Origin: Emcibacter sp.
Lineage (GTDB): Bacteria; Pseudomonadota; Alphaproteobacteria; Sphingomonadales; Emcibacteraceae
DNA: 40,689 nt
Reading direction: 5' to 3'
Assembly (NCBI GenBank): GCA_026982375.1
Contig: JALSHF010000213.1
Span: 1-40,689 of the forward strand
Below, one piece after another: positions 4,631 to 36,871 of the stretch (position 1 is the first letter of the stretch; each line of letters begins with the position of its first letter). The translations under genes were made by a program, and so were the position numbers. The notes below the pieces were generated by a model. The model searched no databases. It was not told where the DNA came from and saw nothing but the letters and a program-made list of their open reading frames with translations.

Positions 4631-4879
4631 ATGGGTTATATCCTCTCTTCAAAGGGTCAAAATAATTATCCTGTTAAATTATTTTTCTCATTGGCGACCC
4701 TATCCTTTTAAGCCTTAAATAAATTGTTATACATCAAGTTTCTCAGTTTAATTTAGAGAGTAAAGTAATTTTTCTGTTTCCTTAAGCCATCAAAAAATTT
4801 TATTTTATAAGTTAAGTATTTTCTTTTAAGCTTAAAATAAATATGTTACATTTTTTTGTTATAAAAATTGGAATAAAAT
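4631..4879. promoter_or_regulatory. Divergent promoter region with paired palindromic repeats
   Basis: A very AT-rich 249-base gap between the MarR gene and the flavoprotein gene. It holds two similar elements about 119 bases apart: CTTTTAAGCCTTAAATAAAT at 4705-4724 and CTTTTAAGCTTAAAATAAAT at 4823-4842. Each is followed within a few bases by a GTTA(TA)CAT-like sequence. The second contains a perfect 14-bp palindrome, TTTTAAGCTTAAAA (4824-4837). The pair fits a MarR operator arrangement; binding is inferred. Confidence 0.5.
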
Positions 4880-6331
4880 ATGCGCGCTAATATTCTGGAG
4901 CCTATTGTAATTAATGGTATGGTTGTCCCCAACAGGACTGTCGTCCCCGCCATGGTCACCCGATTATCCGCAGAGGATGGCTATGTCAATCAGGACATCA
5001 TTGATCGCTACGTAAGCTATGCCAAAGGCAATGTCGGCCTGATCATTGTGGAGGCTATGGCGATCCACGAGTCTAAATCCGGCCCCTTACTGCGTATTTC
5101 AGATGATAGATTCATCGATGGCCATAAAAAACTCACTCAGGCCATTCATGACACCAGCTCTTCCAAAGTCGTGCCTCAAATCATTCACTTTATGAAAGTG
5201 GCCCGCTCTGGCTGGCGTCAGACCATTGACATGCTGTCAGAAGAAGACATTGTCACCATCATCCGTGATTTTGGCGATGCTGCCGCGCGGGCAAGAGAAG
5301 CGGGCTATGACGGTGTGGAGCTTCATTCGGCCCATGCCTATACGCTCTCGTCTTTCCTGTCGCGCCATAATCGGCGCCGCGACCGGTATGATGGCCGCTC
5401 CCTTGAGGGAAGGCTCAGAATGTTTGGTGATGTGATGGCAGAGGTCCGCGCAAAGGTCGGAGCCGATTTTCCTGTTGGCGTGCGGTTTCTGGCCGATGAG
5501 ATGATCAAGGACGGCTATACACTCGAAGACAGCCGCCTGATCGCGCTGCGTATGGCACAGCTTGGCGTTGATTATATTTCCCTGTCTGTCGGCGGCAAAT
5601 TTGAAGATGCCATTTTAAAAGAAGGTCAGCCCCCCTACCCCTATACCGGATATTCCGGCGAACGCTGTATGCCGGGGGCGTCTTTCCCTAAAATGCCCCA
5701 TGTACATTATGCCGCCGCCATCAAGGAAATGATCAACAGCAAGGGGTTTGACATTCCCGTTATTTCAGCAGGCAAAATAAACAGTCCGGAAGATGCCGAA
5801 CAGCTGCTCAGGGACGGCAAAGCCGACATGATCGGGATGGCGCGTCAACTGCTTGTAGACCCCAACTGGCCAAAAAAAGTCATCGAAAATCGCGAAGAAG
5901 ACATCATCCCTTGCGTCTATTGCAATGTTTGCAAGCAGCTTGATGAGAATTTTAAAGAAGTCACCTGCTTTTTATGGCCCAAGGGACATTTGCAGGCCCC
6001 GGATTATGACCCGGGTAGCCTATCCCCCACGTGGGCAAGCTCAGAAGCGTTAAGCGCCGAATATACGAATGGAGCCGTAAAATTAAAATGGCAAAGGGCA
6101 GAGGGTGAAATATCCGGCTATGACCTTTACCGCGCTGAGGACAATGGTCTGGTCAAGATCATACAGGCCAAAAAAGGCACTGGTTTTACCGACAAATCAG
6201 TTCTCGGCGGCCTCAAATACAGCTATTATATCCGCGCCTACACAAAATCAGGCCAGTCAAGCGCGCCGTCAAACATGATAGATCTTGACCTGCCCATAGA
6301 AGATTTTACGCCCCAAATGCCTGAAAAATAA
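4880..6331 (+). CDS. Old-yellow-enzyme-family flavin oxidoreductase fused to a fibronectin type III domain
   Basis: Residues 1-340 form an FMN-binding TIM barrel of the NADH:flavin oxidoreductase/2,4-dienoyl-CoA reductase family. The active-site segment GVELHSAHAYTLSSFLS (146-162) has the H-x-x-H pair, and the phosphate-binding strand SAGKI and GMARQLLVDP lie near 296 and 319. Cysteines at 345, 348, 351 and 363 (C-x2-C-x2-C-x11-C) resemble the 4Fe-4S site of the dienoyl-CoA reductase branch, one residue shorter than usual. The flavodoxin-like and NAD-binding domains normally found after this site are missing. Residues about 383-470 instead look like a fibronectin type III module (VKLKWQRAEGEISGYDLYR, YSYYIRAYTKSGQSSAPSN). 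No signal peptide is seen. The reductase class is secure; the substrate is unknown. Confidence 0.85.
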   Translation: MRANILEPIVINGMVVPNRTVVPAMVTRLSAEDGYVNQDIIDRYVSYAKGNVGLIIVEAMAIHESKSGPLLRISDDRFIDGHKKLTQAIHDTSSSKVVPQIIHFMKVARSGWRQTIDMLSEEDIVTIIRDFGDAAARAREAGYDGVELHSAHAYTLSSFLSRHNRRRDRYDGRSLEGRLRMFGDVMAEVRAKVGADFPVGVRFLADEMIKDGYTLEDSRLIALRMAQLGVDYISLSVGGKFEDAILKEGQPPYPYTGYSGERCMPGASFPKMPHVHYAAAIKEMINSKGFDIPVISAGKINSPEDAEQLLRDGKADMIGMARQLLVDPNWPKKVIENREEDIIPCVYCNVCKQLDENFKEVTCFLWPKGHLQAPDYDPGSLSPTWASSEALSAEYTNGAVKLKWQRAEGEISGYDLYRAEDNGLVKIIQAKKGTGFTDKSVLGGLKYSYYIRAYTKSGQSSAPSNMIDLDLPIEDFTPQMPEK

Positions 6332-19787: not shown

Positions 19788-20705
19788 TTAACGCTTGAAT
19801 ATATCTGCCGGACTTAAAATCGGGTCCAGAACCCCCGCTTTAAAAACAAGCAGCCTGAAAAGATAGAAGCCAAGCATGACACAGCCCGTGACAATCAGAT
19901 TTGTCATGAAATTTGTGGGGATAAACAATAAAATCAGCAGAGGAATGATGCTGCCGACCCCGACAACACCAAGCAGGAAGGGCCGTGCCAAAAAATCTTT
20001 GACCAGCAAAATATATGATTGCTGCGCGCCTTTTGATCCGTTCTTAGCGCCATGTAGCAGACTTAACAGACAAATTTGCACAGCTACGATCAGAGTGATC
20101 TGCGCCAAGCCCAGCATAGAAAAATGTTCCGGGTTTGAAATTGAAAAACCCAATGCGCTCAAAACCAAAACCAGAGAGCTTCCCATAAGCAGGCCATACA
20201 ACATGCTGGATATGGGCATTAACCCTGTACTCCAGAATGAAATGGCCGTTGAATGGGACATGGCAAAGCCCTGATAGGTCACCACCACCATTGCCCCGGC
20301 AATAGCCAAGATATAAACGACAGGCTCCAGGCCAGCAGGCACCACATTGAACAAGACCCCAAGGACATGAATACTGCCGAAGCCAACAAAGAAAATGATC
20401 CCCCATAATCCCCGGCTGATCCATGATCTATCTGGCCGCAACAGGGCCCGCCACGCCTTGGATGGCACGCCCATATGGGTCAAATGAAAGAACGTCTTTC
20501 CCACACCTGTGATCAATAAACCAAGAATAATCCCCGGCAAAAAATCCATCAGCATGGAGACAATGAACAGCCCTGCCCCGGTCTCGCCGCAAAAAAACGC
20601 GGTTGCCATGGGCGTGTCCCAATATTTTTGAAACCGATAACCGGATTTAAAAGTGCCTCCGGCAAATCCGGGGCGCAGTATATTTTTCAAACTCACTTTG
20701 AACAT
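19788..20705 (-). CDS. NrfD/PsrC-type membrane anchor subunit
   Basis: A 305-residue polytopic membrane protein with about eight helices. It matches the NrfD/PsrC group, which carries electrons between a membrane-bound ferredoxin subunit and the quinone pool. Early features include the amphipathic N-terminus, KYWDTPMATAFFCGETGAGLF and LLITGVGKTFFHLTHMG. It is the last gene of the six-gene operon, 16 bases after the ferredoxin subunit. CTCAGGAGAGCGACA upstream of the ATG gives a good ribosome binding site (CTGAGGAGAG on the coding strand). It has no heme-binding histidine pattern that I could identify with confidence. Confidence 0.85.
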   Translation of the reverse strand: MFKVSLKNILRPGFAGGTFKSGYRFQKYWDTPMATAFFCGETGAGLFIVSMLMDFLPGIILGLLITGVGKTFFHLTHMGVPSKAWRALLRPDRSWISRGLWGIIFFVGFGSIHVLGVLFNVVPAGLEPVVYILAIAGAMVVVTYQGFAMSHSTAISFWSTGLMPISSMLYGLLMGSSLVLVLSALGFSISNPEHFSMLGLAQITLIVAVQICLLSLLHGAKNGSKGAQQSYILLVKDFLARPFLLGVVGVGSIIPLLILLFIPTNFMTNLIVTGCVMLGFYLFRLLVFKAGVLDPILSPADIFKR

Positions 20706-20721
20706 TGTCGCTCTCCTCAGA

Positions 20722-21336
20722 TTAATCGATATAATATACTTTTGGACGGGTATTTTTTTCAGGCAAGGGTTGCCGGCCCATACGATCCCGGATCAGTTTG
20801 CTTACCTTGCTATCCGGGTCATCAAGATCGCCAAATACCCGCGCATCGGTCGGGCAAGTGGCGACGCAGGCCGGGTCCAGGCCCCCGTCCACCCGCTCCG
20901 AGCAGAAATCGCATTTGGTAAAACTTCCGCATTCAAAACGGGAATAGCCCTGTTCTTCAAATGGGGTCAGCTTACCATCTCCGAAAAGACCATTTGTTAT
21001 CTGGGTTTCTTCGATTTGCGTGCGCATGTCATAGGGACAGGCCACCGCGCAGGAGCCACAGCCAATACATTTATCCCCGTCCACCATGACAATGCCGTCA
21101 TCCCGGGTCCATGTGGCCCCGCTGGGGCAGACTTTTTCGCAAGGCGCATCCTCGCAGTGATTGCAGATCGTCGGCAGATAGCTGCGCGATACATATGGAT
21201 ATTCGCCGCTTTCCGCGCTTAAGGTGCGGGTGAAAAACACACCGTCCGGCAGAGAGTTTTCCTGTTTGCACGCCACGGTACAGGCATTGCAGCCGATACA
21301 GCGTTTGACATCAAATACCATTCCGTAACGGGTCAT
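20722..21336 (-). CDS. Four-cluster ferredoxin subunit (DmsB/PsrB/PhsB type)
   Basis: Electron-transfer subunit joining the molybdenum catalytic subunit to the membrane anchor. Sixteen cysteines in four groups would bind four 4Fe-4S clusters: CIGCNACTVAC (from residue 13), CNHCEDAPCEKVC (from about 58), CIGCGSCAVACP (from about 89) and CDFCSERVDGGLDPACVATCP (from about 141; its first Cys to last Cys form the fourth group). At 204 residues it has the usual length for the DMSO-reductase family. It has no signal peptide. It overlaps the catalytic subunit gene by 4 bases (21333-21336), implying coupled translation and a fixed ratio. Confidence 0.93.
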   Translation of the reverse strand: MTRYGMVFDVKRCIGCNACTVACKQENSLPDGVFFTRTLSAESGEYPYVSRSYLPTICNHCEDAPCEKVCPSGATWTRDDGIVMVDGDKCIGCGSCAVACPYDMRTQIEETQITNGLFGDGKLTPFEEQGYSRFECGSFTKCDFCSERVDGGLDPACVATCPTDARVFGDLDDPDSKVSKLIRDRMGRQPLPEKNTRPKVYYID

Positions 21337-23930
21337 TGCATGGCCTTTCCGTCTGAAAATTCATAGAGGTTACCCTCGCCTTTCAGTTCATCGGGAATAT
21401 GGTCAAGTTTTGTCAATTTGACACGGCAAACAGATTCGCACTGGCCACTACAAGCATCGGTATTTTCAAGGTCCGCCGGCAGCATGTCATTAAAATGACC
21501 GCCGCCGTAAGGTACGCCCGCATTTTGCGACATCATACGCGACAGGGAATTTGACACGCCAATAGTCTCCGGATGAATGCCCTCGGTCAGGCCAAGCCGG
21601 CCATAAATCTTGCCATATTGCGATTCCACCAACACCAGATCACCGTCGACAAGTCCCTTGGCAGCGGCCGTTTTCGTATTTAACTGCAAGGCCGTATGGA
21701 CCGGGTCGCGATAGACGATATCCTTGATCCACGGATTACTCAGGCTTTCGCCAAAATTGAGCTGAATATCCTTAAAAGTAATGGCATAAAGGTCATAATC
21801 GCCGTTATCGCGCAATACAGGCTCCAGCATCGGGGTTGGCAGAGGTTGGTAATCCTCCCAATGCCATTCATTGCGGATCGGGACTTCGGCCTCCTCCATG
21901 GCTTTTTTCAGGCCATCACGCTCACGTATAATGTCCTCAATATAAAATAACAAGCGCATGCCATCCCAAGGTTTATACCATTTATCCGGCCTTCGCGGTG
22001 TGACCGAATGGCCATGCTCTATATACCAGTCCAGATCCTTGCCGTTCCAATTCAGGCCTTTTCGGCGGGCGATTTCCTTCTCGCCATGCTTCTGATCCAG
22101 TTCAAGTTTAAGATTAGGACTTTCTTCAAAGCCATTGACAATATTAAGAACACTATTCCAAACCTCCAAAACCCCCAGACCTTCTGAAATATCATTAAAA
22201 ATATCTTCCTCACTGCGGGTATCATAGAGCGGCTTTGTCATGGGTTGGCGCAGGCACATGCCTTCGGTATGGGGCGGCTCTATCATGGTCATATTCCAGC
22301 TTTCCAGTGAATCATGGCCCGGCAGAATAATATCCGCAAAACAATTGGTATCATTGGGGACAATATCAATGGAAACGATGAACCGCATGCTGCGCATAAT
22401 ATCAAACCAGTCTCCGCGATTTCCGGGCAGGCTCCAGATTGGATTGGAATGACAGATCAGCATCACATCCGGTGTGAATTCAAGATTGAATTTTTCCGGA
22501 TTTTTCCAGACTTCGACATTCAGATGCCCCGGATGAACCCCAAGCGGAAAATAGCTCATCAAATCCATATTATCCGGCGGGAAGGAGAATCCGGGATGGG
22601 GGCCCAGTTGATGAGGCGTGCCGAGCAATTGACCGCTGTCCCCTTCGGCCACATGGCCGTTATCTATTTTCTGATCATCCAATGTGGCGCCCACATGACC
22701 GCCCGGCACATCAATACTGCCCACCAGCATATTGACCAGCTTGAAAGCGTGATTGGACTGGCTGCTGTATTTATGGGCATGGGCGCCCCGGTAATAATTA
22801 TAGCCCGCAGGGCGAAGCGGCAGTGTGCGGCCCTCGATGGTAATGCTATTGCCGATTTCAGCCGCTTCGGCAAACTCGCGGGCGATGCGTCGAATGGTCT
22901 CTGCCGGCACGGTGGTCACCTCGGACATTTGTTCCGGTGTGCAATCTTCCAGAATATCTTTAAAGCGCTGAAAGGACGGTTTGCAGGCCTTGCCCTCCAC
23001 CTCATATGATCCCTCGATGGCAAACGCACCGATGGACTTGTCATCATAGGTTTTCGCCTTGTTATCCTTGCTGTCCCAGACATAAATTTTTCCGTCCTTG
23101 TCACGGATAAAATAACCGTCATCACCAACCAGGTAAGGCGCATTGGTATCCTTCTTCAGGGTTTCATAATCACATAGGCCCTCTTCAATCAGAACATGGC
23201 ACATGCCCAGCGCAAAATGACGGTCAGAGGCCGGCTTAATGGGGACCCATTCTTCGGCCTTGGCCCCGCCGATGGACAGGCGCGGTTCAATGCAGACCAC
23301 GCGCATATTGCGCTCAACCCGCGCATTGGCCACATGAAAAGCCTGTGCTGCCGTATGAAGATGAGAGGAAAACCCGTCCCCGCTACCGTTATTAATCCAG
23401 TAATTACAATAGTTAACGTCATTTGCCGCCGCAAAGGTGGAATGAATAAATCCGTTCATCGGATGATAGCCACCGCCGCAAAAACTGCCCGCTGTTGAGA
23501 AATAATTGCTGTTGCCCACAACCAGAGGCCAGGCCCAGAGATAAAGTTTTTGAAAATCCGCAATGGAAGGCAGAAGCTTTCTGGGATCCTCATCAACGGA
23601 TTTCTTCAACTCCCGGATGGTGGTCTCCATAGCCTCCTCCCAACTGATCGGTTCCCACATAGGATCAATGCCCGGCCCCTTTTGTGGGTTGGTACGTTTC
23701 AGCGGTGTTTTAAACCGGCTTGGGTCATAATGACGCATAATGGCCGCATTTCCCTTGGGGCAGAGCCGCCCCATATTGGCCGGACTATCAGGATCACCTT
23801 CAATTTTGTTAATGACGCCCTCATCGGTCACATGGACACGCGTATTACAGGAATGAATGCACATCTTGCACGAGGATTTTTTCCAAGTTCCGGCCTTCAT
23901 GGAATTCTGAACGGGGGTTTGGTCTGTCAT
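21333..23930 (-). CDS. Molybdopterin (bis-MGD) oxidoreductase catalytic subunit
   Basis: Catalytic subunit of a DMSO-reductase-superfamily enzyme, 865 residues. The N-terminal 4Fe-4S site is C21-x2-C24-x3-C28 with the fourth cysteine at C57 (GRLCPKG). A cysteine at 151, in the segment NSNYFSTAGSFCGGG, aligns with the Mo-ligand position of polysulfide/thiosulfate reductases (PsrA, PhsA). The C-terminal molybdopterin-binding domain includes HTALQLNTKTAAAKGL and LVESQYGKIYGRL. No twin-arginine signal is visible, so the subunit probably stays in the cytoplasm, unlike PsrA or DmsA. The ribosome binding site is GGGAG 7 bases before ATG. It follows the xanthine-dehydrogenase-type large subunit by 38 bases. 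The reaction is unknown; PsrABC/PhsABC/SoeABC are the nearest architectural relatives. Confidence 0.88.
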   Translation of the reverse strand: MTDQTPVQNSMKAGTWKKSSCKMCIHSCNTRVHVTDEGVINKIEGDPDSPANMGRLCPKGNAAIMRHYDPSRFKTPLKRTNPQKGPGIDPMWEPISWEEAMETTIRELKKSVDEDPRKLLPSIADFQKLYLWAWPLVVGNSNYFSTAGSFCGGGYHPMNGFIHSTFAAANDVNYCNYWINNGSGDGFSSHLHTAAQAFHVANARVERNMRVVCIEPRLSIGGAKAEEWVPIKPASDRHFALGMCHVLIEEGLCDYETLKKDTNAPYLVGDDGYFIRDKDGKIYVWDSKDNKAKTYDDKSIGAFAIEGSYEVEGKACKPSFQRFKDILEDCTPEQMSEVTTVPAETIRRIAREFAEAAEIGNSITIEGRTLPLRPAGYNYYRGAHAHKYSSQSNHAFKLVNMLVGSIDVPGGHVGATLDDQKIDNGHVAEGDSGQLLGTPHQLGPHPGFSFPPDNMDLMSYFPLGVHPGHLNVEVWKNPEKFNLEFTPDVMLICHSNPIWSLPGNRGDWFDIMRSMRFIVSIDIVPNDTNCFADIILPGHDSLESWNMTMIEPPHTEGMCLRQPMTKPLYDTRSEEDIFNDISEGLGVLEVWNSVLNIVNGFEESPNLKLELDQKHGEKEIARRKGLNWNGKDLDWYIEHGHSVTPRRPDKWYKPWDGMRLLFYIEDIIRERDGLKKAMEEAEVPIRNEWHWEDYQPLPTPMLEPVLRDNGDYDLYAITFKDIQLNFGESLSNPWIKDIVYRDPVHTALQLNTKTAAAKGLVDGDLVLVESQYGKIYGRLGLTEGIHPETIGVSNSLSRMMSQNAGVPYGGGHFNDMLPADLENTDACSGQCESVCRVKLTKLDHIPDELKGEGNLYEFSDGKAMQ

Positions 23931-23968: not shown

Positions 23969-26329
23969 CTATGCTTTTGAGCCGCTTTTTTCTGCGAGGG
24001 CTTTCAGGATTTTTTCCGGTGTGATCGGGGCTTCCAATATCTGAATACCGATGGCATTGAAGATGGCGTTGGCCGTTGCCCCAACCGGCGGCACTATTCC
24101 CGCTTCTCCCACACCTTTCGCACCGAACGGGCCGGTCGGGTCTGGATTTTCCACGAGAATATTGGTCATTTTTGGCATGTCTGACGGCCCGAGCATTTTA
24201 TAATCCGTGAAGCTGTTATTCAAGCAGATGCCTTTGTCATCATAATAGGTCTCCTCGGTCAGTGCCATCCCAAGCCCCTGCTGCGCGCCGCCGTCCAGCT
24301 GTCCTTCGACAATACCGGGATGAATGGCGCGGCCCACATCATGGGCATTGACCAATTCAATGACTTTTACCTCCCCCGTTTCCATATCCACTGCGACCTC
24401 AGCGATACTGGCCCCGAAAGGCGGGGCATTATGGGGCGGAAAGAAGCTGGCATAGCCCTGAATCTGGCCCGGCTGACCAATCAATTCGCCATTTTCCGGA
24501 TTCATGAAATTATTAACCCCTTGATCCGCAATGGTCAGGACTGAAATAGATTTATTTGACGCGCCTTTAACATGGATAATTTTATCCTCCATATAAAGAT
24601 TATCCACAGTCTCGCCCAACTCAAGTGCGGCTCGATCAAAAATCTGCTTTCGCACATCTTCGCAGGCCTGCTTCACCGCGCCGCCGCCCACATATAGCGT
24701 CCGGCTGGCATGGGCGCCAATGTCAAAACCGGCGGCGTCCGTATCGCCTGTGGCTATATGAATATCCTCATAAGGAAAGCCCAATGTCTCCGCCGCAATC
24801 TGCCGCAGCGTGGTATGAGAGCCCTGCCCCATGTCAGAACAGGCAAGATTGAGGGTCACCGTTGCATCCTGATGAAGCAAGGCATCACAGACCGTATGTT
24901 CAAGCAGCATGGGCATGGCCCCGCTGGTATGGTTCATGACCGAAACGCCAATGCCGCGCCTTATTGTGCCGGTCTGGTTTTTATATTTCGCGCGCTTTTC
25001 TGTCCAGCCGATGGCTTTGGCGGCCCGGTCCAGACATTCGTCAAGCGCGCAGCTGTTATATGGCACGCCCATGCACCAGCCATCATCTCCGATGGTTTTA
25101 TGCCATTTTTTCCGCCACTCAATGGGATCAACTCCAAGCGCCGCGCATCCCCGGTCAACCATCTGTTCCATGACAAAATTTGTCTGGGGGTTACCATATC
25201 CCCTAAAGGCTCCGCAAATGCTTTGATTGGTATAATAAGACTCCCCCCGGTAGCGCAGGCTGTCAAATTTATACATGCCGCCCAGCCAGGCCCCTGTGGT
25301 AAAGGCCGTGCCAGAAGCATCCACATAATAGGCCCCCTTGTAATTTTCAAATTTGGCGTCACAGGCCACCGGTGTGCCGTCTTTTTTAAAGCCCATCTTC
25401 ATCCAGTATTTGCCCGGATGGCGGGACGGGGACGTGACCCAATCCTCTTCCCGTGTGGAAAGAACCTTAACCGGGCGGCCCGGCACCGCCATGGCAAGCG
25501 CGCAGGTTTCCGGCTCCAGCACCATACCAAGCCGCGCACCAAAACCGCCGCCGATGACGGTCGAGTTTATTTTAACCCGCGTCATGGGCAATTCAAACAG
25601 ATTGGCCAGTTTTTTCTGAACCAGTTTTGGCATTTGAGTTGATGTCCAGCAATTCAGGCGTTCCTGATCGTCATAAAGCGCAATATAAGCTCCCGGCTCC
25701 ATCTGACATTGCTTCTGCTTTGGCACATAAAAAGTGTCTTCCACAATAATGTCGGCCTCTTCAAAGCTTTTGTCCACTTCGCCCCAGGCATAGGCATTGT
25801 CCGGAAAGGCCATTTCCGGCAATTGAAAAGCAAGATTTCCCGGTTTTTCAGGGCGAAACTGCACCGCATCCGGTTGCTTGGCAGCTTCCGCTGTCAAATA
25901 AACCGGAAGCTCTTCATAGCTGACAATAATTTTCTCTGCGGCCCGCTCTGCGGCCTCTTCGGAGGTGGCAATCACGGCGGCAATGGCATCGCCGTAATGT
26001 TTCACATGGCTCGTAAAGATACTTTGGTCATCAATGTCGCCAAGCATGCCGCGCATGTCAGCGGAAACCATCATATCAAGGACGGAACCATTATATTCCT
26101 TTTGCGTGACGTCTTTTGGGCCAAGAACCTTGATCACGCCCTTGCATTTTGCCGCCTTAGATAAATCAAGCCCCGTTACTCTGGCGTGAGCATAGTCATA
26201 ACAGCGCACAATCTTGCCATAAAGCATCCCGGCCATTTGCACATCCGCGGCATAGACAGCGCCGCCCGTTACCTTGGCCCGCACATCAACCCGCTCAACT
26301 CTTTTGCCAACAACCGAAAGGTTATCCAT
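23969..26329 (-). CDS. Xanthine dehydrogenase-family molybdopterin-binding large subunit
   Basis: Mo-cofactor subunit of a molybdenum hydroxylase that uses water as the oxygen source to hydroxylate aldehydes, purines or N-heteroaromatics. It begins with the family pattern VGKRVERVDVRAKVTGGAVYAADV. The Q-containing loop region TVIGGGFGARLG lies near residue 260 and AFRGYGNPQ near 374. The catalytic glutamate is E742 in GAKGVGEAG. The AFRGYG signature argues against CO dehydrogenase, which has AYRCSFR. Its 786 residues are normal. It follows the small subunit by 2 bases, in medium-small-large order. No MoCo sulfurase or XdhC-type chaperone is visible in the window. The substrate is not determined. 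Confidence 0.92.
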   Translation of the reverse strand: MDNLSVVGKRVERVDVRAKVTGGAVYAADVQMAGMLYGKIVRCYDYAHARVTGLDLSKAAKCKGVIKVLGPKDVTQKEYNGSVLDMMVSADMRGMLGDIDDQSIFTSHVKHYGDAIAAVIATSEEAAERAAEKIIVSYEELPVYLTAEAAKQPDAVQFRPEKPGNLAFQLPEMAFPDNAYAWGEVDKSFEEADIIVEDTFYVPKQKQCQMEPGAYIALYDDQERLNCWTSTQMPKLVQKKLANLFELPMTRVKINSTVIGGGFGARLGMVLEPETCALAMAVPGRPVKVLSTREEDWVTSPSRHPGKYWMKMGFKKDGTPVACDAKFENYKGAYYVDASGTAFTTGAWLGGMYKFDSLRYRGESYYTNQSICGAFRGYGNPQTNFVMEQMVDRGCAALGVDPIEWRKKWHKTIGDDGWCMGVPYNSCALDECLDRAAKAIGWTEKRAKYKNQTGTIRRGIGVSVMNHTSGAMPMLLEHTVCDALLHQDATVTLNLACSDMGQGSHTTLRQIAAETLGFPYEDIHIATGDTDAAGFDIGAHASRTLYVGGGAVKQACEDVRKQIFDRAALELGETVDNLYMEDKIIHVKGASNKSISVLTIADQGVNNFMNPENGELIGQPGQIQGYASFFPPHNAPPFGASIAEVAVDMETGEVKVIELVNAHDVGRAIHPGIVEGQLDGGAQQGLGMALTEETYYDDKGICLNNSFTDYKMLGPSDMPKMTNILVENPDPTGPFGAKGVGEAGIVPPVGATANAIFNAIGIQILEAPITPEKILKALAEKSGSKA

Positions 26330-26331
26330 GA

Positions 26332-26832
26332 TTATTCTCCCATAGCAGATGTGTTTGATCCGGAAATGCGCCGGCTCGCATCCTGAACGGCCTCGACAAT
26401 TTTGGTATATCCCGTACAGCGGCAGATATTTCCCTCAAGACCATGGCGGATTTCAGCTTCTGTTGGTGCCGGATTCTCATCCAGAAGACTTATGGTTTTC
26501 AGCACCATCCCCGGCGTACAAAAACCACACTGAATGGCATCATTTTCAATGAAGGCTTCCTGAACCGGATGCAGATGGCCATTGCGGGCCAGTCCTGCCG
26601 CTGTCGTGATTGATTTTCCATTCATGGTGGCCGCCAAAGTCAAACAACCGTTAATCGTTGTCATGCCATCAACCAATATTGTACAGGCCCCGCATTCCCC
26701 CGTTCCACAGCCATATTTGGTATCAGTATAGCCCAAATCATCCCTAAGCGCATCAAGCAGGGTGCGGTTGGAGGACACAAGCAAATCGCGCTCTTCTCCA
26801 TTGACCGTCAATGTTATGGCATGTTTTTTCAT
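26332..26832 (-). CDS. Xanthine dehydrogenase-family (2Fe-2S) small subunit
   Basis: A 166-residue iron-sulfur subunit. The plant-ferredoxin-type cluster is bound by C42, C47, C50 and C63 (GCGTGECGAC, NGC). The second, all-helical cluster domain has C102, C105, C137 and C139 (QCGFCTPGM, NICRCTGY). It carries electrons from the Mo centre to the FAD subunit. It overlaps the medium subunit gene by 4 bases (26829-26832) and is 2 bases from the large subunit gene. GGGAG precedes the ATG at good spacing. All eight cysteines are present, so the protein should be functional. Confidence 0.96.
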   Translation of the reverse strand: MKKHAITLTVNGEERDLLVSSNRTLLDALRDDLGYTDTKYGCGTGECGACTILVDGMTTINGCLTLAATMNGKSITTAAGLARNGHLHPVQEAFIENDAIQCGFCTPGMVLKTISLLDENPAPTEAEIRHGLEGNICRCTGYTKIVEAVQDASRRISGSNTSAMGE

Positions 26833-27710
26833 TGGTCATCTCCCTTTGCATTCAGCGCGGCCTCAATAACCCTTTTGACCAGAACACCGGCCACTTTATT
26901 GCGATATTCCGCAGAGGATCTCTGGTCATCAATAGGCGCAATTTCCGATATCACCACATTTGATATATCGCGCAATAAATCTGGCGTAACGGCCGCCCCT
27001 TCAAGTATTTTTTCAACTTTGGGCAGACGAAGCAAGGTGGGGCCGACACAGCCCATGACGACGCGCGCCTTGCGGCAGGTTTCGCCGGTCATTTGCAGGC
27101 AAACAGCGGCATTAATTTTGGACAGGTCTTCTGTGGTTCTGGTCATGCGGCGAAAGGCTGATTTCTGCCCCTTTTCTGGTGCGGGAACATGTAACGAGAC
27201 GGCCAGTTCATCAGCACGCCTTGCCGTAACGCCGTAAGAAATCCAGAAATCATCAAGGTCAACATTTCGGCAACCATTGGCATTTTTCAAAAGCAAGCTG
27301 CCGCCTGTCGCATAAAGTGCCGCGCTACAATCACCCGCCGGAGAAGCCCTGAGAATATTTCCCAGAACCGTGGCTGTGTTACGTAGCTGCGGCGTGGCAA
27401 ATACCTTTGCCGCTTGCCATAGCGCCGGATAATGATCTTTTACATCTTGCGATCGCAGGACTTCGGCTATTGTCACCTTGGCCCCGATCGTCAGGCCTTT
27501 CGCCGAATCAAAATCCAGTTCATCCAATCCCGGCACAAGGGCCAGCGAGATAACATTGTCTATCGCATAATCAAATTTCAGCGCGACCAACAGATCAGTT
27601 CCCCCCGCCAGCACCGCCGATTTATCTTTATGGCGGGCCAATAAGGCGATTGTTTCTTCTATTGATTCCGGCAACAACAACTCAAAATCCCGCATCACGC
27701 GACTGCTCAT
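26829..27710 (-). CDS. Xanthine dehydrogenase-family FAD-binding medium subunit
   Basis: A 293-residue FAD subunit of the CoxM/PCMH type that accepts electrons from the 2Fe-2S subunit and passes them to an outside acceptor. FAD-binding motifs are SAVLAGGTDLLVALK near residue 30 and TATVLGNILRASPAGDC near 112; the second reads VLGN where IGGN is usual. The C-terminal domain is complete. It has no extra cysteine cluster like that of 4-hydroxybenzoyl-CoA reductase. It is the first gene of the six-gene minus-strand operon, with a GGAGGAG ribosome binding site whose spacing sequence is the same as that of the bis-MGD subunit gene. Confidence 0.92.
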   Translation of the reverse strand: MSSRVMRDFELLLPESIEETIALLARHKDKSAVLAGGTDLLVALKFDYAIDNVISLALVPGLDELDFDSAKGLTIGAKVTIAEVLRSQDVKDHYPALWQAAKVFATPQLRNTATVLGNILRASPAGDCSAALYATGGSLLLKNANGCRNVDLDDFWISYGVTARRADELAVSLHVPAPEKGQKSAFRRMTRTTEDLSKINAAVCLQMTGETCRKARVVMGCVGPTLLRLPKVEKILEGAAVTPDLLRDISNVVISEIAPIDDQRSSAEYRNKVAGVLVKRVIEAALNAKGDDQ

Positions 27711-32410: not shown

Positions 32411-33220
32411 ATGAACAACGCAACATTAACCAATCTTGCAACCGAACTGGCCACAGGTGCCATTCGGGTCGTGGATCTGACAGTTCCTTTAAATGAAAAT
32501 ACACCAATCATTGGATTACCAGAAGAATTCAAACAGTCCCCCGGCTTTAAAATGGAAAAAATTTCTTATTTTGATGCGGATGGCCCGGCCTGGTATTGGA
32601 ACAGTTTTTCCTGCGGGGAACATACGGGCACTCATTTTGACGCGCCGGGTCACTGGATCTCGGGGCGGGATTATACCGATGGCTGCACCGACACTATTCC
32701 GCCTGAAAAATTCATTGCGCCCGCCAATGTTATTGATGTCAGCAAAGAGGCCGCTGCCGATCCGGACTATCTGTTAACCTCTGACAAATTGAAAGAATGG
32801 GAAAGTGAAAACGGAAAAATTGAACCCGGTACATGGGTATTAATGCGTACCGATTGGAGCAAAAGAACTCCAGAAGATTTCCTGAATTATGCCGAAGATG
32901 GCCCCCATACCCCCGGGCCATCGGTTGATTGTATGGAATTCCTGACAAAAGAGCGGGATATTTTAGGTTTTGGCGTGGAAACCGTCGGCACTGATGCCGG
33001 ACAGGCTTTTGCCTTTGATCCGGCCTTTCCAGCTCATCAACTGATGCACGGCAGCAATAAATTTGGACTCGCCTCCCTGACCAATCTTGATCAGTTGCCG
33101 CCAAAGGGTGCCATCATTGTCACGCCGCCCCTTAAAATTGAACATGGTTCCGGCAGCCCCCTGCGTGTCATCGCCCTTACCACAAAAAAGCCGCTCCCAA
33201 TGAATAAGAACCATGGCTGA
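32411..33220 (+). CDS. Cyclase-family metal-dependent hydrolase (isatin hydrolase/kynurenine formamidase-like)
   Basis: A 269-residue protein of the cyclase family. The metal-binding signature is complete: H71-T-G-T-H75-F-D77-A-P-G-H81, preceded by YWNSFSCGE. The family includes kynurenine formamidase, isatin hydrolase and related amide or lactam hydrolases, which use a divalent metal. No kynurenine-pathway genes are next to it, so KynB is not assumed. Its stop overlaps the iorA start by 8 bases (33213-33220), so it shares the operon with a 2-oxo-acid oxidoreductase. Hydrolysis of a ring amide or lactam in an aromatic pathway is an inference. Confidence 0.85.
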   Translation: MNNATLTNLATELATGAIRVVDLTVPLNENTPIIGLPEEFKQSPGFKMEKISYFDADGPAWYWNSFSCGEHTGTHFDAPGHWISGRDYTDGCTDTIPPEKFIAPANVIDVSKEAAADPDYLLTSDKLKEWESENGKIEPGTWVLMRTDWSKRTPEDFLNYAEDGPHTPGPSVDCMEFLTKERDILGFGVETVGTDAGQAFAFDPAFPAHQLMHGSNKFGLASLTNLDQLPPKGAIIVTPPLKIEHGSGSPLRVIALTTKKPLPMNKNHG

Positions 33221-35360
33221 ACGTTCCTTTGCCAAAGAAGTAAAGAAACTTCGTCTTGGGGCGGGGGAGGTTTTCCACGGCGAAGGGATTCTCGCCATTA
33301 CCAAGGGTCTGCTCCAGTCCGGCGTGGCTTACGTCGGCGGCTATCAAGGTTCCCCCGTATCCCATTTGATGGATGTTCTGGCTGATTCTCAGGAAATACT
33401 ATCTGAACTTGACGTCCATTTCGAAGCCAATGGCAGCGAAGCCAGCGCTGCGGCCATGCTGTCTGCCTCCATCAGTTATCCATTGCGCGCCGCCGTCACC
33501 TGGAAATCCACTGTCGGAACAAATGTGGCGTCTGATGCGTTATCAAACCTTGCCTCCGCCGGTGTTATCGGCGGAACCGTAATCATCATTGGCGAAGATT
33601 ACGGCGAAGGCGCGAGCATTATGCAGGAACGCTCCCATGCCTTTGCCATGAAATCGCAAATATGGCTGATCAGCCCGCGTCCGAATCTGCCCGATATGGT
33701 TGATATGCTGGAAAAAAGCTTTCAATTATCGGAAGCCAGCAACAGCCCGATATTTTTTCAGATGCGTATCCGCGCCTGCCATTTACATGGCCAGTTTATT
33801 GCCAAGGATAATATCAAACCAAAATTCACCCTGCGGGATGCTCTGGATAACCCCAACCGCGAGCCAGACAAGATTATCCTGCCGCCATTTACGTTCCTTC
33901 ATGAAAAGCAAAAACGGGAATTACGCTGGCCTGCTGCGATTAAATTCATTATTGACCATAATTTAAATGACATTATAGATGACCCGGAAAATGAGATCGG
34001 CATTATTTTAGAGGGCGGCCTCTATAACGTTGTGATCAGGGCTTTGCAAATATTGGGGCTGGCCACCAGTATGGGGGAAAGCAGAATTCCCCTTTATATC
34101 ATGAATGTGACCTATCCTTTGGTGGATAGCGAATTGGTGGCCTTCGCCAAAAATAAAAAAGCGGTCTTGATGGTCGAAGAAGGCCAGCCCAATTATATTG
34201 AACAGGCTTTAAATAAAATCTTTAATGACGCAAAACTCACCTGTAAAATTTCGGGCAAAGATTTTCTGCCGGCCTTCGGAGAATATAGCGGACAGGTTAC
34301 CAAAGATGGCATCAAAGGCTTTATCACCAGATATAATCCGGCATTGCTCGGACGGGATGAGCATGAGACGCCCATGGCTTCTTTATCGGCCATATCCACG
34401 AGCGAATTAGAAACTGCAATCCCTGCGCGCCCGCCGGGTTTATGTACAGGTTGTCCCGAAAGGCCATTTTTCGCCGCCCTGAAAATGCTGGAAAAAGACT
34501 ATGGCGAGATACATATTTCAGCAGATATTGGCTGCAATTCTTTTGGCACCCTGCCCCCGTTCCAGATTGGCAATACGATCATGGGATATGGCCTTGGCGC
34601 TGCCAGTTCATCGGCCTTTGGTTCAGTCAAGGGCAAGCGGGCCATATCCATCATGGGCGACGGCGGTTTTTGGCATAATGGGCTGACCAGCGGCATTGCC
34701 AGCGCTGTCTTTAATAACAGCGATAATGTCTTTATCATTGTGGACAATGGTTACGCCGCCGCGACGGGTGGCCAATATATTCCGTCATCTGCGAAAACAT
34801 TAAAGGAAGACGAGCGCAAAGCCCGCATACAGGACGCCGTTCAGGGCGTCGGGGTCAAATGGGTGCGCACCATAAATTCCTATGATATTTCTGATGTGAA
34901 AACATTGGTTCAGGAGGCAATGACAACCGATTTCCCTGGCCCCAAAATAATTGTGGTTGAGGGCGAATGTATGCTCAACAGGCAGCGCCGGGAAAAGCCC
35001 GTCATTGCCCGAAATATTAAATCCGGCAACCGCGAAATCAAACAACGTTTTTATGTGGAAAGCGAAACCTGCAGCGGCGATCATGCCTGTATCCGCCTGT
35101 CCGGCTGTCCATCACTGACCATCAAGCCCAATCCTGATATTTTACGCGAAGATCCGGTGGCCTATGTGGATAACAGCTGCGTTGGCTGCGGCGTCTGCGG
35201 CGAGAATGTCCATTCTGCGGTTTTATGCCCGTCCTTTTCCAGAGCCGACCTGATTTTTAACCCCACAGTCTGGGATCGTTTCAAATATTCTTTGCGCCAA
35301 ACGATCATTACAGCCCTGCAAAGACGCCGTGACCGCAAGCGGGCAAAGGTAATGTTATGA
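33213..35360 (+). CDS. iorA: Indolepyruvate ferredoxin oxidoreductase, alpha subunit-like
   Basis: Thiamine-diphosphate enzyme that oxidatively decarboxylates arylpyruvates to aryl-acyl-CoA, reducing ferredoxin. The pyrimidine-binding domain at the N-terminus carries GYQGSPVSHLMDVLA. CTGCPERPF is at about residue 411 and the diphosphate-binding GDGGFWHNG at about 482, with NGYAAATGGQ completing it. A C-terminal iron-sulfur domain from about residue 620 has CSGDHACIRLSGCPSL and CVGCGVCGEN, the form usual in the DUF6537-linked branch. Its 715 residues are normal for the split-subunit form. It overlaps both neighbours (cyclase by 8 bases, iorB by 4). The exact 2-oxo acid is not determined by sequence. 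Confidence 0.9.
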   Translation: MAERSFAKEVKKLRLGAGEVFHGEGILAITKGLLQSGVAYVGGYQGSPVSHLMDVLADSQEILSELDVHFEANGSEASAAAMLSASISYPLRAAVTWKSTVGTNVASDALSNLASAGVIGGTVIIIGEDYGEGASIMQERSHAFAMKSQIWLISPRPNLPDMVDMLEKSFQLSEASNSPIFFQMRIRACHLHGQFIAKDNIKPKFTLRDALDNPNREPDKIILPPFTFLHEKQKRELRWPAAIKFIIDHNLNDIIDDPENEIGIILEGGLYNVVIRALQILGLATSMGESRIPLYIMNVTYPLVDSELVAFAKNKKAVLMVEEGQPNYIEQALNKIFNDAKLTCKISGKDFLPAFGEYSGQVTKDGIKGFITRYNPALLGRDEHETPMASLSAISTSELETAIPARPPGLCTGCPERPFFAALKMLEKDYGEIHISADIGCNSFGTLPPFQIGNTIMGYGLGAASSSAFGSVKGKRAISIMGDGGFWHNGLTSGIASAVFNNSDNVFIIVDNGYAAATGGQYIPSSAKTLKEDERKARIQDAVQGVGVKWVRTINSYDISDVKTLVQEAMTTDFPGPKIIVVEGECMLNRQRREKPVIARNIKSGNREIKQRFYVESETCSGDHACIRLSGCPSLTIKPNPDILREDPVAYVDNSCVGCGVCGENVHSAVLCPSFSRADLIFNPTVWDRFKYSLRQTIITALQRRRDRKRAKVML

Positions 35361-36871
35361 ACAATCAAATGGAACGCCCCGTAACCATTGTTATATCAGC
35401 TCTTGGCGGTCAGGGCGGCGGCGTCTTGACCAACTGGCTGGTCACTTTGGCTGAACAATGTGACTATTTCGCGCAATCCACCTCCGTTCCCGGCGTGGCG
35501 CAACGGACGGGGGCGACCATTTATTATCTTGAGATATTTCCAAAATTATCGGCGGTGGATAAGACTATTCCGCCGGTCATGGCCCTGATGCCCATGGCAG
35601 GCGATGTGGATCTTGTGGTGGCGGCTGAATTGATGGAAGCGGGCCGCGCCATACAAAGACGATTTGTAACCCCGAATAAAACCACCCTTATCACCTCTGG
35701 CCACCGCGTTTATTCCATATCTGAAAAGATGGCCATGGGGGATGGAATAGGCGACTCCGAAACGGTAATAAGAGCAGCCCATGAAGCGGCCAGGAATTTC
35801 ATTGTCTTTGATATGGAAAAGCTGGCCGGAAAAATGGGCTGCGTGATCAGTTCAATCCTTTTCGGCGCGATTGCAGCCTCTGGAATATTACCTTTTTCCC
35901 GGAAAAATTTCGAAGAAGCGATTAAAGCCGAGGGCAAAATGGTTGAAGCGAATCTGCGCGGATTTGACGCAGGATTTCAGGCCGCAGAGAATGCAACAGA
36001 CAAAATCCCGCTGGATGAGGCCTCAAATATTACAGCGTCCATGATCACAGGCATGATCACAGGCAAGGCAAATTCTCCCCGGGCCGAGCTTTTGATCAAA
36101 AGAATTAATGCCCTGCCCGCAGCCGCCAGAGAATTTGCTTACGCCGGCGCACAAAAGCTTTTGAATTATCAAGACCTTGACTATGCAGATCAATATTTAA
36201 GCCTATTGGAAGGCTTTGCGGCAAAGGATAAACCCCCCTTTGATATTACCCGGGAATTAGCCCGCTATCTGGCGCTCTGGATGGCTTTCGATGATACGAT
36301 CAAGGTGGCGGATATCAAAACGCGAACCGAAAGAGTTGAAAAATACCGCGCCGAGGTCAAGGCGGCTGACGGCCAGATTGTCCATATGGTAGAATTCATG
36401 CATCCCCGAATAGAAGAAATCATAGGGACCATGCCCTTAAGCATGGCGAATATGGTTAAAAAATCATCATTACTCACATGGTTTTTTAAAAAATTTACGG
36501 GGCCAAGGCTATTGGATACCACTAAAATATCCTCTTTTCTAATGCTTTATTTTATCGCATCCTTAAAGCCCATACGCCGTAAGACAGAGCGTTTCCATCA
36601 GGAATTTATCCATATTATGAAATGGCTGGATCATATTTCTGATGTCATGACACAAGATTATGATCTGGCCGTGGAAATCATCCGGTGCCAAAGATTGATC
36701 AAAGGCTACGGCGAAACACATGAGCGGGGATTAAATAATTTTGCGCGTATCATGTCGGCTATTGATCAGGGCAATGTCAATGCCCACAGGGTAGCTGAAC
36801 TTAAAATGGCCGCTCTTGCCGATGAGGAAGGTAAAACCCTTGAAAATGAGCTGAAGAAAAACCATCCATAG
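35357..36871 (+). CDS. iorB: Indolepyruvate oxidoreductase, beta subunit-like, with DUF6537
   Basis: Partner of the alpha subunit. Residues about 10-200 are the pyruvate-ferredoxin-oxidoreductase gamma domain, with ISALGGQGGGVLTNWL (13-28) and STSVPGVAQRTGATIYY. The C-terminal part (about 250-470) matches the DUF6537 region that appears in the long bacterial form. The total of 504 residues is typical of the separate-gene version; in many proteobacteria alpha and beta are fused in one long protein. It starts inside the iorA stop (ATGA at 35357-35360), so the two are translated together. It is convergent with the desaturase-like gene, 14 bases away. Confidence 0.9.
   Translation: MNNQMERPVTIVISALGGQGGGVLTNWLVTLAEQCDYFAQSTSVPGVAQRTGATIYYLEIFPKLSAVDKTIPPVMALMPMAGDVDLVVAAELMEAGRAIQRRFVTPNKTTLITSGHRVYSISEKMAMGDGIGDSETVIRAAHEAARNFIVFDMEKLAGKMGCVISSILFGAIAASGILPFSRKNFEEAIKAEGKMVEANLRGFDAGFQAAENATDKIPLDEASNITASMITGMITGKANSPRAELLIKRINALPAAAREFAYAGAQKLLNYQDLDYADQYLSLLEGFAAKDKPPFDITRELARYLALWMAFDDTIKVADIKTRTERVEKYRAEVKAADGQIVHMVEFMHPRIEEIIGTMPLSMANMVKKSSLLTWFFKKFTGPRLLDTTKISSFLMLYFIASLKPIRRKTERFHQEFIHIMKWLDHISDVMTQDYDLAVEIIRCQRLIKGYGETHERGLNNFARIMSAIDQGNVNAHRVAELKMAALADEEGKTLENELKKNHP

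Follow-up and report, generated by a model that had tools for sequence, protein, structure and literature searches.

The CoA-dependent degradation of 2-aminobenzoate (anthranilate) is known from Azoarcus evansii, where anthranilate first becomes 2-aminobenzoyl-CoA, 2-aminobenzoyl-CoA monooxygenase/reductase (ACMR) turns this into 2-amino-5-oxocyclohex-1-ene-1-carbonyl-CoA, and beta-oxidation-type enzymes then take over (reviewed in PMC4539516), and in Arthrobacter CoA thioesters fitting hydroxyanthraniloyl-CoA and a cyclohexanedione-carboxyl-CoA were detected (PMC3534580). Among the enzymes of the old yellow enzyme (OYE) superfamily, 2-naphthoyl-CoA reductase (NCR) reduces a ring-CoA thioester: it acts on a low-potential aromatic substrate, carries a [4Fe-4S] cluster between FMN and FAD, and continues past its barrel into FAD-binding and second alpha/beta domains, while the related trimethylamine dehydrogenase (TMADH) and histamine dehydrogenase hand their electrons to ETF (PMC6502838).

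Here, we describe an OYE-type flavoenzyme gene found in the window (the whole stretch of Emcibacter sp. DNA that was analysed, 40,689 nucleotides), whose product joins an FMN-binding barrel and four cysteines to a fibronectin type III (FN3) domain (Table 1). We propose, with a probability of roughly 0.55, that this OYE-FN3 protein represents a previously unnamed OYE subfamily that serves CoA-dependent anthranilate degradation by reducing a ring-CoA intermediate.

Table 1. Features of the OYE-FN3 gene and its upstream region (positions in the window).
Feature	Position	Strand	Basis or remark
OYE / [4Fe-4S] / FN3 flavoenzyme gene	4880..6331	+	483 aa, ATG start
FMN-binding OYE TIM barrel, residues 1-343	4880..5908	+	Pfam, AlphaFold2 model, alignments
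Subfamily insertion G-K-F-E-D-A...Y-P-Y-T-G-x-S-G-x-x-C-M-P, residues 240-266	5597..5677	+	Alignment; the only other holder is the sister clade
C345, C348, C351, C363: predicted [4Fe-4S] site, TMADH/histamine dehydrogenase-type spacing	5912..5968	+	Alignments
Fibronectin type III domain, residues 386-472	6035..6295	+	Pfam, AlphaFold2, Foldseek
Divergent MarR-family regulator, 155 aa	4163..4630	-	OYE-MarR pair kept in five relatives examined
20-nt direct repeat, copy 1, CTTTTAAGCcTtAAATAAAT, putative operator	4705..4724	.	Near the MarR promoter
20-nt direct repeat, copy 2 of CTTTTAAGCcTtAAATAAAT, putative operator	4823..4842	.	Ahead of the OYE start, 118 nt from copy 1 at 90% identity

Barrel, cysteines and FN3 domain

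The barrel matched PF00724 (Oxidored_FMN) at 5e-50 and 171 bits, against a gathering score of 27, and the AlphaFold2 model of the whole protein (alignment of 56 relatives; mean pLDDT 94.6, pTM 0.91) resembled solved OYE structures, so that the OYE assignment made in the initial annotation stands. The ene-reductase motif (H/N-x2-H/N with a Tyr proton donor) is present as H149, H152 and Y154, which are invariant in the OYE-FN3 clade, as are the FMN-site residues Q100, R202 and R322. The insertion GKFEDA...YPYTGxSGxxCMP was invariant in 28 alignment rows, except for K240 (K or R in the sister clade), and fell into a gap in the FadH-like and ACMR rows. Whole-sequence family scores favoured BaiCD-type and YqjM-type reductases. 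An extracellular enzyme was rejected, as the N-terminus (MRANILEPIVINGM) showed no signal-like stretch by eye.

Past the barrel, the four cysteines listed in the initial annotation recur without exception in 27 orthologues (C345-x2-C348-x2-C351-x11-C363), and we predict that they bind a [4Fe-4S] cluster. Their spacing had been called one residue short; this is correct relative to the FadH motif (C-x2-C-x3-C-x11-C), but it is no oddity, since the same spacing is found in the 6-HPON amine oxidase (6l6j, identical in the alignment), TMADH and histamine dehydrogenase. The first three cysteines (CVYCNVC) align with CIGCNVC of TMADH and CIGCNIC of histamine dehydrogenase, and we thus discarded the spacing as an anomaly.

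The C-terminal tail had been annotated as an FN3-like module (about residues 383-470) taking the place of flavodoxin-like and NAD-binding domains, and on both counts the analyses agreed. Neither a flavodoxin-like or NAD-binding domain, nor the ADP-binding domains of the TMADH group, were found after the cysteines (Pfam and AlphaFold2 model, with Foldseek in accord for the former). The PF00041 (fn3) profile did match where expected (residues 394-465), but with scores below its gathering value of 25 (19.6 bits with the full-length protein, 23.9 bits with only the tail), and it matched 11 of the 27 orthologues at E<=0.1. In the structure predictions, seven strands form an FN3 sandwich at 391-470 in the whole-protein model, the tail folded alone reached a pLDDT of 92.2 and a pTM of 0.79, and its Foldseek matches were FN3 domains of twitchin, PelI, FN3con and chitinase A1 (prob 1.00). 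At class level the FN3 domain retains 34-52% identity versus 66-75% in the barrel, which indicates that it is kept but changes faster, and makes it the least conserved part of the protein.

Structural alignments extended to residues 455-462 for eight three-domain relatives, entering the start of their FAD/ADP-binding domain, as opposed to ~381 for simple OYEs. This range suggests (from the model) that the FN3 domain overlaps the start of the FAD/ADP-binding domain and occupies its place beside the cluster, an arrangement that is unusual in a cytoplasmic redox enzyme. No described OYE-FN3 fusion was found in the papers searched, where both terms occurred together only in a fungal RNAi study.

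Distribution, gene neighbourhood and co-occurrence with ACMR

The OYE-FN3 gene was recovered from 14 of the 15 sampled genus mates and from one sister genus (74-93% identity over the full length), and among 289 genomes sampled across the class, 15 besides that of the window carried it, from ten other alphaproteobacterial families (61-67% identity for full-length copies). Every copy above 60% identity whose contig reaches the FN3 position has the domain (two copies, L115 and L015, end at contig ends before it). Hence, homologues with the same fusion do exist, and close homologues do not stop at about residue 380; only the sister clade (~39-44% identity) ends at the Fe-S region. At phylum level, a sample of 398 genomes (E<1e-50) yielded no FN3 form beyond the window itself, its single match besides the window's genome being a sister-clade protein, and the plasmid search found no FN3 form either. 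A MAG labelled as SAR324 had a gene of the FN3 form (62% identity) on a contig of 3.2 kb (L026), which may reflect transfer or misbinning.

The sub-gathering fn3 score could in principle point to a chance match, or to a frameshift joining two genes, and thereby to a local oddity. We give this practically no credence: the fold is confident, the reading frame holds no stop or frame change, and conservation at 74-93% (genus and sister genus) and 61-67% (ten families) shows that the fusion is neither a chance product nor an assembly error.

In a tree of 57 barrels the FN3 proteins formed one clade (SH-aLRT 97), which grouped with the sister clade (SH-aLRT 100), leaving FadH-like proteins and the reductase half of ACMR outside. 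Sister-clade proteins (e.g., L165 7048-8559, L168 8111-9559, L170 7331-8800) have no FN3 domain, bear a long insertion ahead of the H-x2-H motif, and carry the motif C-x2-T/S-x2-C-x11-C, in which Thr or Ser replaces the second cysteine; a cluster bound through three cysteines, leaving an iron open, would be unusual. One of them is encoded on the Limnohabitans plasmid pTEGF4 (L185 9926-15098), two genes from a tryptophanase and with an NCS2 permease in between.

In the loci of the ten other families, CoA-pathway genes lay within a few kb of the OYE-FN3 gene in 15/15 cases. There the gene is flanked by genes for MarR, an acyl-CoA dehydrogenase, a benzoate-CoA-ligase-family protein, an SDR and an enoyl-CoA hydratase; the ligase gene adjoins it directly in 13 of the 15 loci (and is, in most other-family carriers, the sole close ligase of that kind in the genome), and ACMR sits in the same cluster in three. 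Linkage to genes of the 2-aminobenzoyl-CoA pathway (ligase, ACMR, beta-oxidation genes, MarR, RidA) was thus found in all ten families, and neighbours passed the curated cut-offs of NF006101 (ACMR/salicylyl-CoA 5-hydroxylase) and NF006107 (enoyl-CoA hydratase). A PLP-dependent decarboxylase gene (PF00282) lies directly downstream of the OYE gene in four relatives (L146, L147, L148, L149); none adjoins it in the window, where a trypsin-like gene on the other strand takes that position, or in genome G010.

ACMR, counted as present above the curated cut-off of NF006101 (a model that also covers salicylyl-CoA 5-hydroxylase), was encoded by 14 of the 15 FN3 carriers versus 35 of the 273 other genomes in the class sample (Fisher p 4e-11), although the p values given here overstate independence because the genomes share ancestry; counted by family, the agreement was 10/10. 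The sister form follows the same pattern (ACMR above the cut-off in 11 of 12 genomes of the class sample, p 1e-8, again among genomes sharing ancestry). The two forms never shared a genome in the sample (chance among ACMR genomes 0.014, likewise with shared ancestry), and carriers were concentrated where ACMR scores below 1,200 bits (22/27 vs 3/22, p 2e-6). Neither form was present in 24 of the 49 ACMR-positive genomes, so the OYE step is not universal in the pathway, but an optional or alternative one.

The OYE gene of the window itself stands outside the pathway cluster, beside dnaK-dnaJ and the divergent MarR gene. Within the genus, the full set (RidA-ACMR-SDR-MarR-hydratase-acyl-CoA dehydrogenase-ligase) is found at another locus (L178, L179, L180), and in the window's assembly the same pathway genes are scattered over the short contigs C104, C31 and C135. 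The ACMR gene of this genome (G000) appears split over the ends of C31 and C104 (L177, L175) with overlapping profile ranges (1-517 and 477-764), probably through an assembly break. The MarR protein encoded next to the OYE gene shares 41-45% identity with its counterparts in the aminobenzoyl-CoA clusters within the family, which suggests a common regulatory origin. Both copies of the putative operator repeat are intergenic and largely conserved in the genus.

Farther along, the window holds three more gene groups. An operon at 19788-23930 encodes a molybdenum enzyme of the DMSO-reductase type (865 aa; it matched no equivalog, and its best partial match was thiosulfate reductase PhsA), a protein bearing several ferredoxin-like four-cysteine motifs, and a likely membrane protein. 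It is followed (23969-27710) by a three-subunit molybdenum hydroxylase of the xanthine-dehydrogenase type, of which the two subunits scanned scored below all NCBIfam equivalog cut-offs. Positions 32411-36871 encode a cyclase (PF04199) and two proteins resembling IorA (715 aa) and IorB, the latter passing NF006179. Together with the molybdenum hydroxylase, these three proteins may act on indolic or other aromatic acids from which anthranilate could be supplied.

Proposed role and alternative readings

The gene set around the OYE-FN3 and ACMR genes matches the Azoarcus evansii pathway (PMC4539516) and the Arthrobacter data (PMC3534580). In this pathway, a ligase forms 2-aminobenzoyl-CoA, the ring is then hydroxylated and partly reduced by ACMR, and its opening falls to beta-oxidation-type enzymes. 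Since the best structural relative is a ring-CoA reductase (NCR) and H149, H152 and Y154 are invariant, we propose that the OYE-FN3 protein is an alicyclic CoA-thioester reductase, i.e. an FMN/[4Fe-4S] enzyme that would hydrogenate an activated C=C bond of the ring-CoA intermediate after ACMR. Candidate substrates include the 2-amino-5-oxocyclohexene-carbonyl-CoA released by ACMR and a dienoyl-CoA derived therefrom; H149 and H152 would hold the substrate, while FMN would donate the hydride and Y154 the proton. As NF006101 includes salicylyl-CoA 5-hydroxylase, the acid handled could be salicylate instead of anthranilate, and an amino substrate is favoured only by the presence of RidA and by resemblance to the cluster already known.

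Electrons may enter as NAD(P)H at the FMN, or from a one-electron carrier via the predicted cluster. Many OYEs (the reductase half of ACMR included) lack an NAD domain, their FMN receiving hydride directly from NAD(P)H, so the earlier statement that electrons must come from a partner protein was too strong. The related idea, that the FN3 domain brings in a dedicated redox partner and that catalysis depends on this domain, seems to us improbable. It would fit the missing dinucleotide-binding domain after the cluster, and the alignment range that reaches 455-462 in the eight three-domain relatives as compared with ~381 in simple OYEs; yet conservation within the protein is lowest in the FN3 domain (34-52% at class level), the sister clade manages without it in the same pathway, and many OYEs need no partner. 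Positioned at the point at which related enzymes enter their FAD/ADP-binding domain, the FN3 domain probably caps the cluster side, and it may offer a docking face.

Two other readings place the enzyme at a different reaction. The enzyme could work as TMADH and histamine dehydrogenase do: FMN would oxidise one of the pathway's amine or CoA intermediates (e.g., by oxidative deamination at C2), the electrons would pass through the [4Fe-4S] cluster to ETF, and the FN3 domain would stand in for the ADP-binding domain by giving ETF a docking face. The cysteine spacing of that group (CVYCNVC vs CIGCNVC), the rank of TMADH as the next-best structure after the NCR entries (Z 45.9), an ETF-type acyl-CoA dehydrogenase encoded next door, and the transfer of electrons to ETF by TMADH and histamine dehydrogenase (PMC6502838) all speak for it. 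We nevertheless regard it as quite doubtful, because H149-x2-H152-x-Y154 aligns with ene-reductases (7o0t alignment), whole-sequence scores favour BaiCD-type and YqjM-type reductases, and the ACMR product, an enamine-type thioester, can be hydrolysed to release ammonia (RidA being encoded close by), which would make an oxidative deamination unnecessary. Alternatively, the enzyme could act upstream, its substrate being derived from indole or tryptophan and supplying the pathway with anthranilate. In four relatives a decarboxylase gene follows directly, and on the Limnohabitans plasmid a tryptophanase gene is close to that of the sister-clade enzyme; both fit a wider role in tryptophan or indole metabolism and leave room for such a substrate. 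The window also holds the indolepyruvate oxidoreductase-like pair and the molybdenum hydroxylase; still, the acyl-CoA dehydrogenase and CoA ligase genes that flank the gene in the other families argue for a substrate at the CoA stage, and no decarboxylase adjoins it in the window or G010, so we consider an upstream substrate unlikely.

Reduction of a ring-CoA intermediate thus remains our preferred reading, and it may be extended to both clades. We would place an even bet on the reading that the subfamily marked by the loop GKFEDA...YPYTGxSGxxCMP provides a hitherto undescribed reduction in CoA-dependent anthranilate degradation and comes in two mutually exclusive forms, one with four cysteines and an FN3 cap instead of dinucleotide domains, the other with an enlarged barrel loop and Thr or Ser as the second cysteine. 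The steps that follow ACMR in the aerobic 2-aminobenzoyl-CoA pathway have been described merely as beta-oxidation, and the OYE-FN3 protein is a concrete candidate for one of them. Its subfamily may also supply ene-reductases that act on cyclic CoA thioesters, and its domain swap offers a natural test of how a single-electron cofactor is wired to the barrel flavin when no reductase is fused to it.

Comparison with known enzymes

The highest-scoring NCBIfam model for the barrel and Fe-S region was that of the bile-acid flavoenzyme BaiCD (NF041087, 215 bits), but its cut-off of 825 bits was not reached and only positions 3-364 of its 642 were matched; a link to bile-acid or steroid reductases was set aside, as the neighbours are not steroid genes. 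With the reductase half of ACMR (NF006101) the OYE-FN3 protein shares the OYE fold, the pathway and the gene cluster, whereas that half belongs to a separate clade, lacks the cysteines and the FN3 domain, and is fused to a monooxygenase. FadH (2,4-dienoyl-CoA reductase, 1ps9) is similar in its barrel, four cysteines and CoA substrate class, and differs in its C-x2-C-x3-C-x11-C motif, its flavodoxin-like and NAD domains, and the lack of the YPYTGxSGxxCMP insertion. The TMADH/histamine dehydrogenase group (2tmd, 3k30, 6de6, 6l6j) has the same cysteine spacing and the same fold of barrel and linker, but the OYE-FN3 protein has none of its ADP-binding domains and possesses an H-x2-H-x-Y motif of the ene-reductase type.

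Among solved structures, the best match was NCR (VIA Z 48.0 over 356 residues at 2.0 A; Foldseek E 1e-27), and after the NCR entries came TMADH (Z 45.9), FadH (45.2) and histamine dehydrogenase (44-45). Sequence identity to NCR (6qkg; a type III aryl-CoA reductase) is 24-28%, and of its barrel, [4Fe-4S] cluster, FAD-binding and second alpha/beta domains the OYE-FN3 protein has the barrel and the cysteines, with one FN3 domain in place of the remainder. What the two have in common is an OYE barrel with FMN, a (here predicted) [4Fe-4S] linker and a place in a CoA-thioester pathway.
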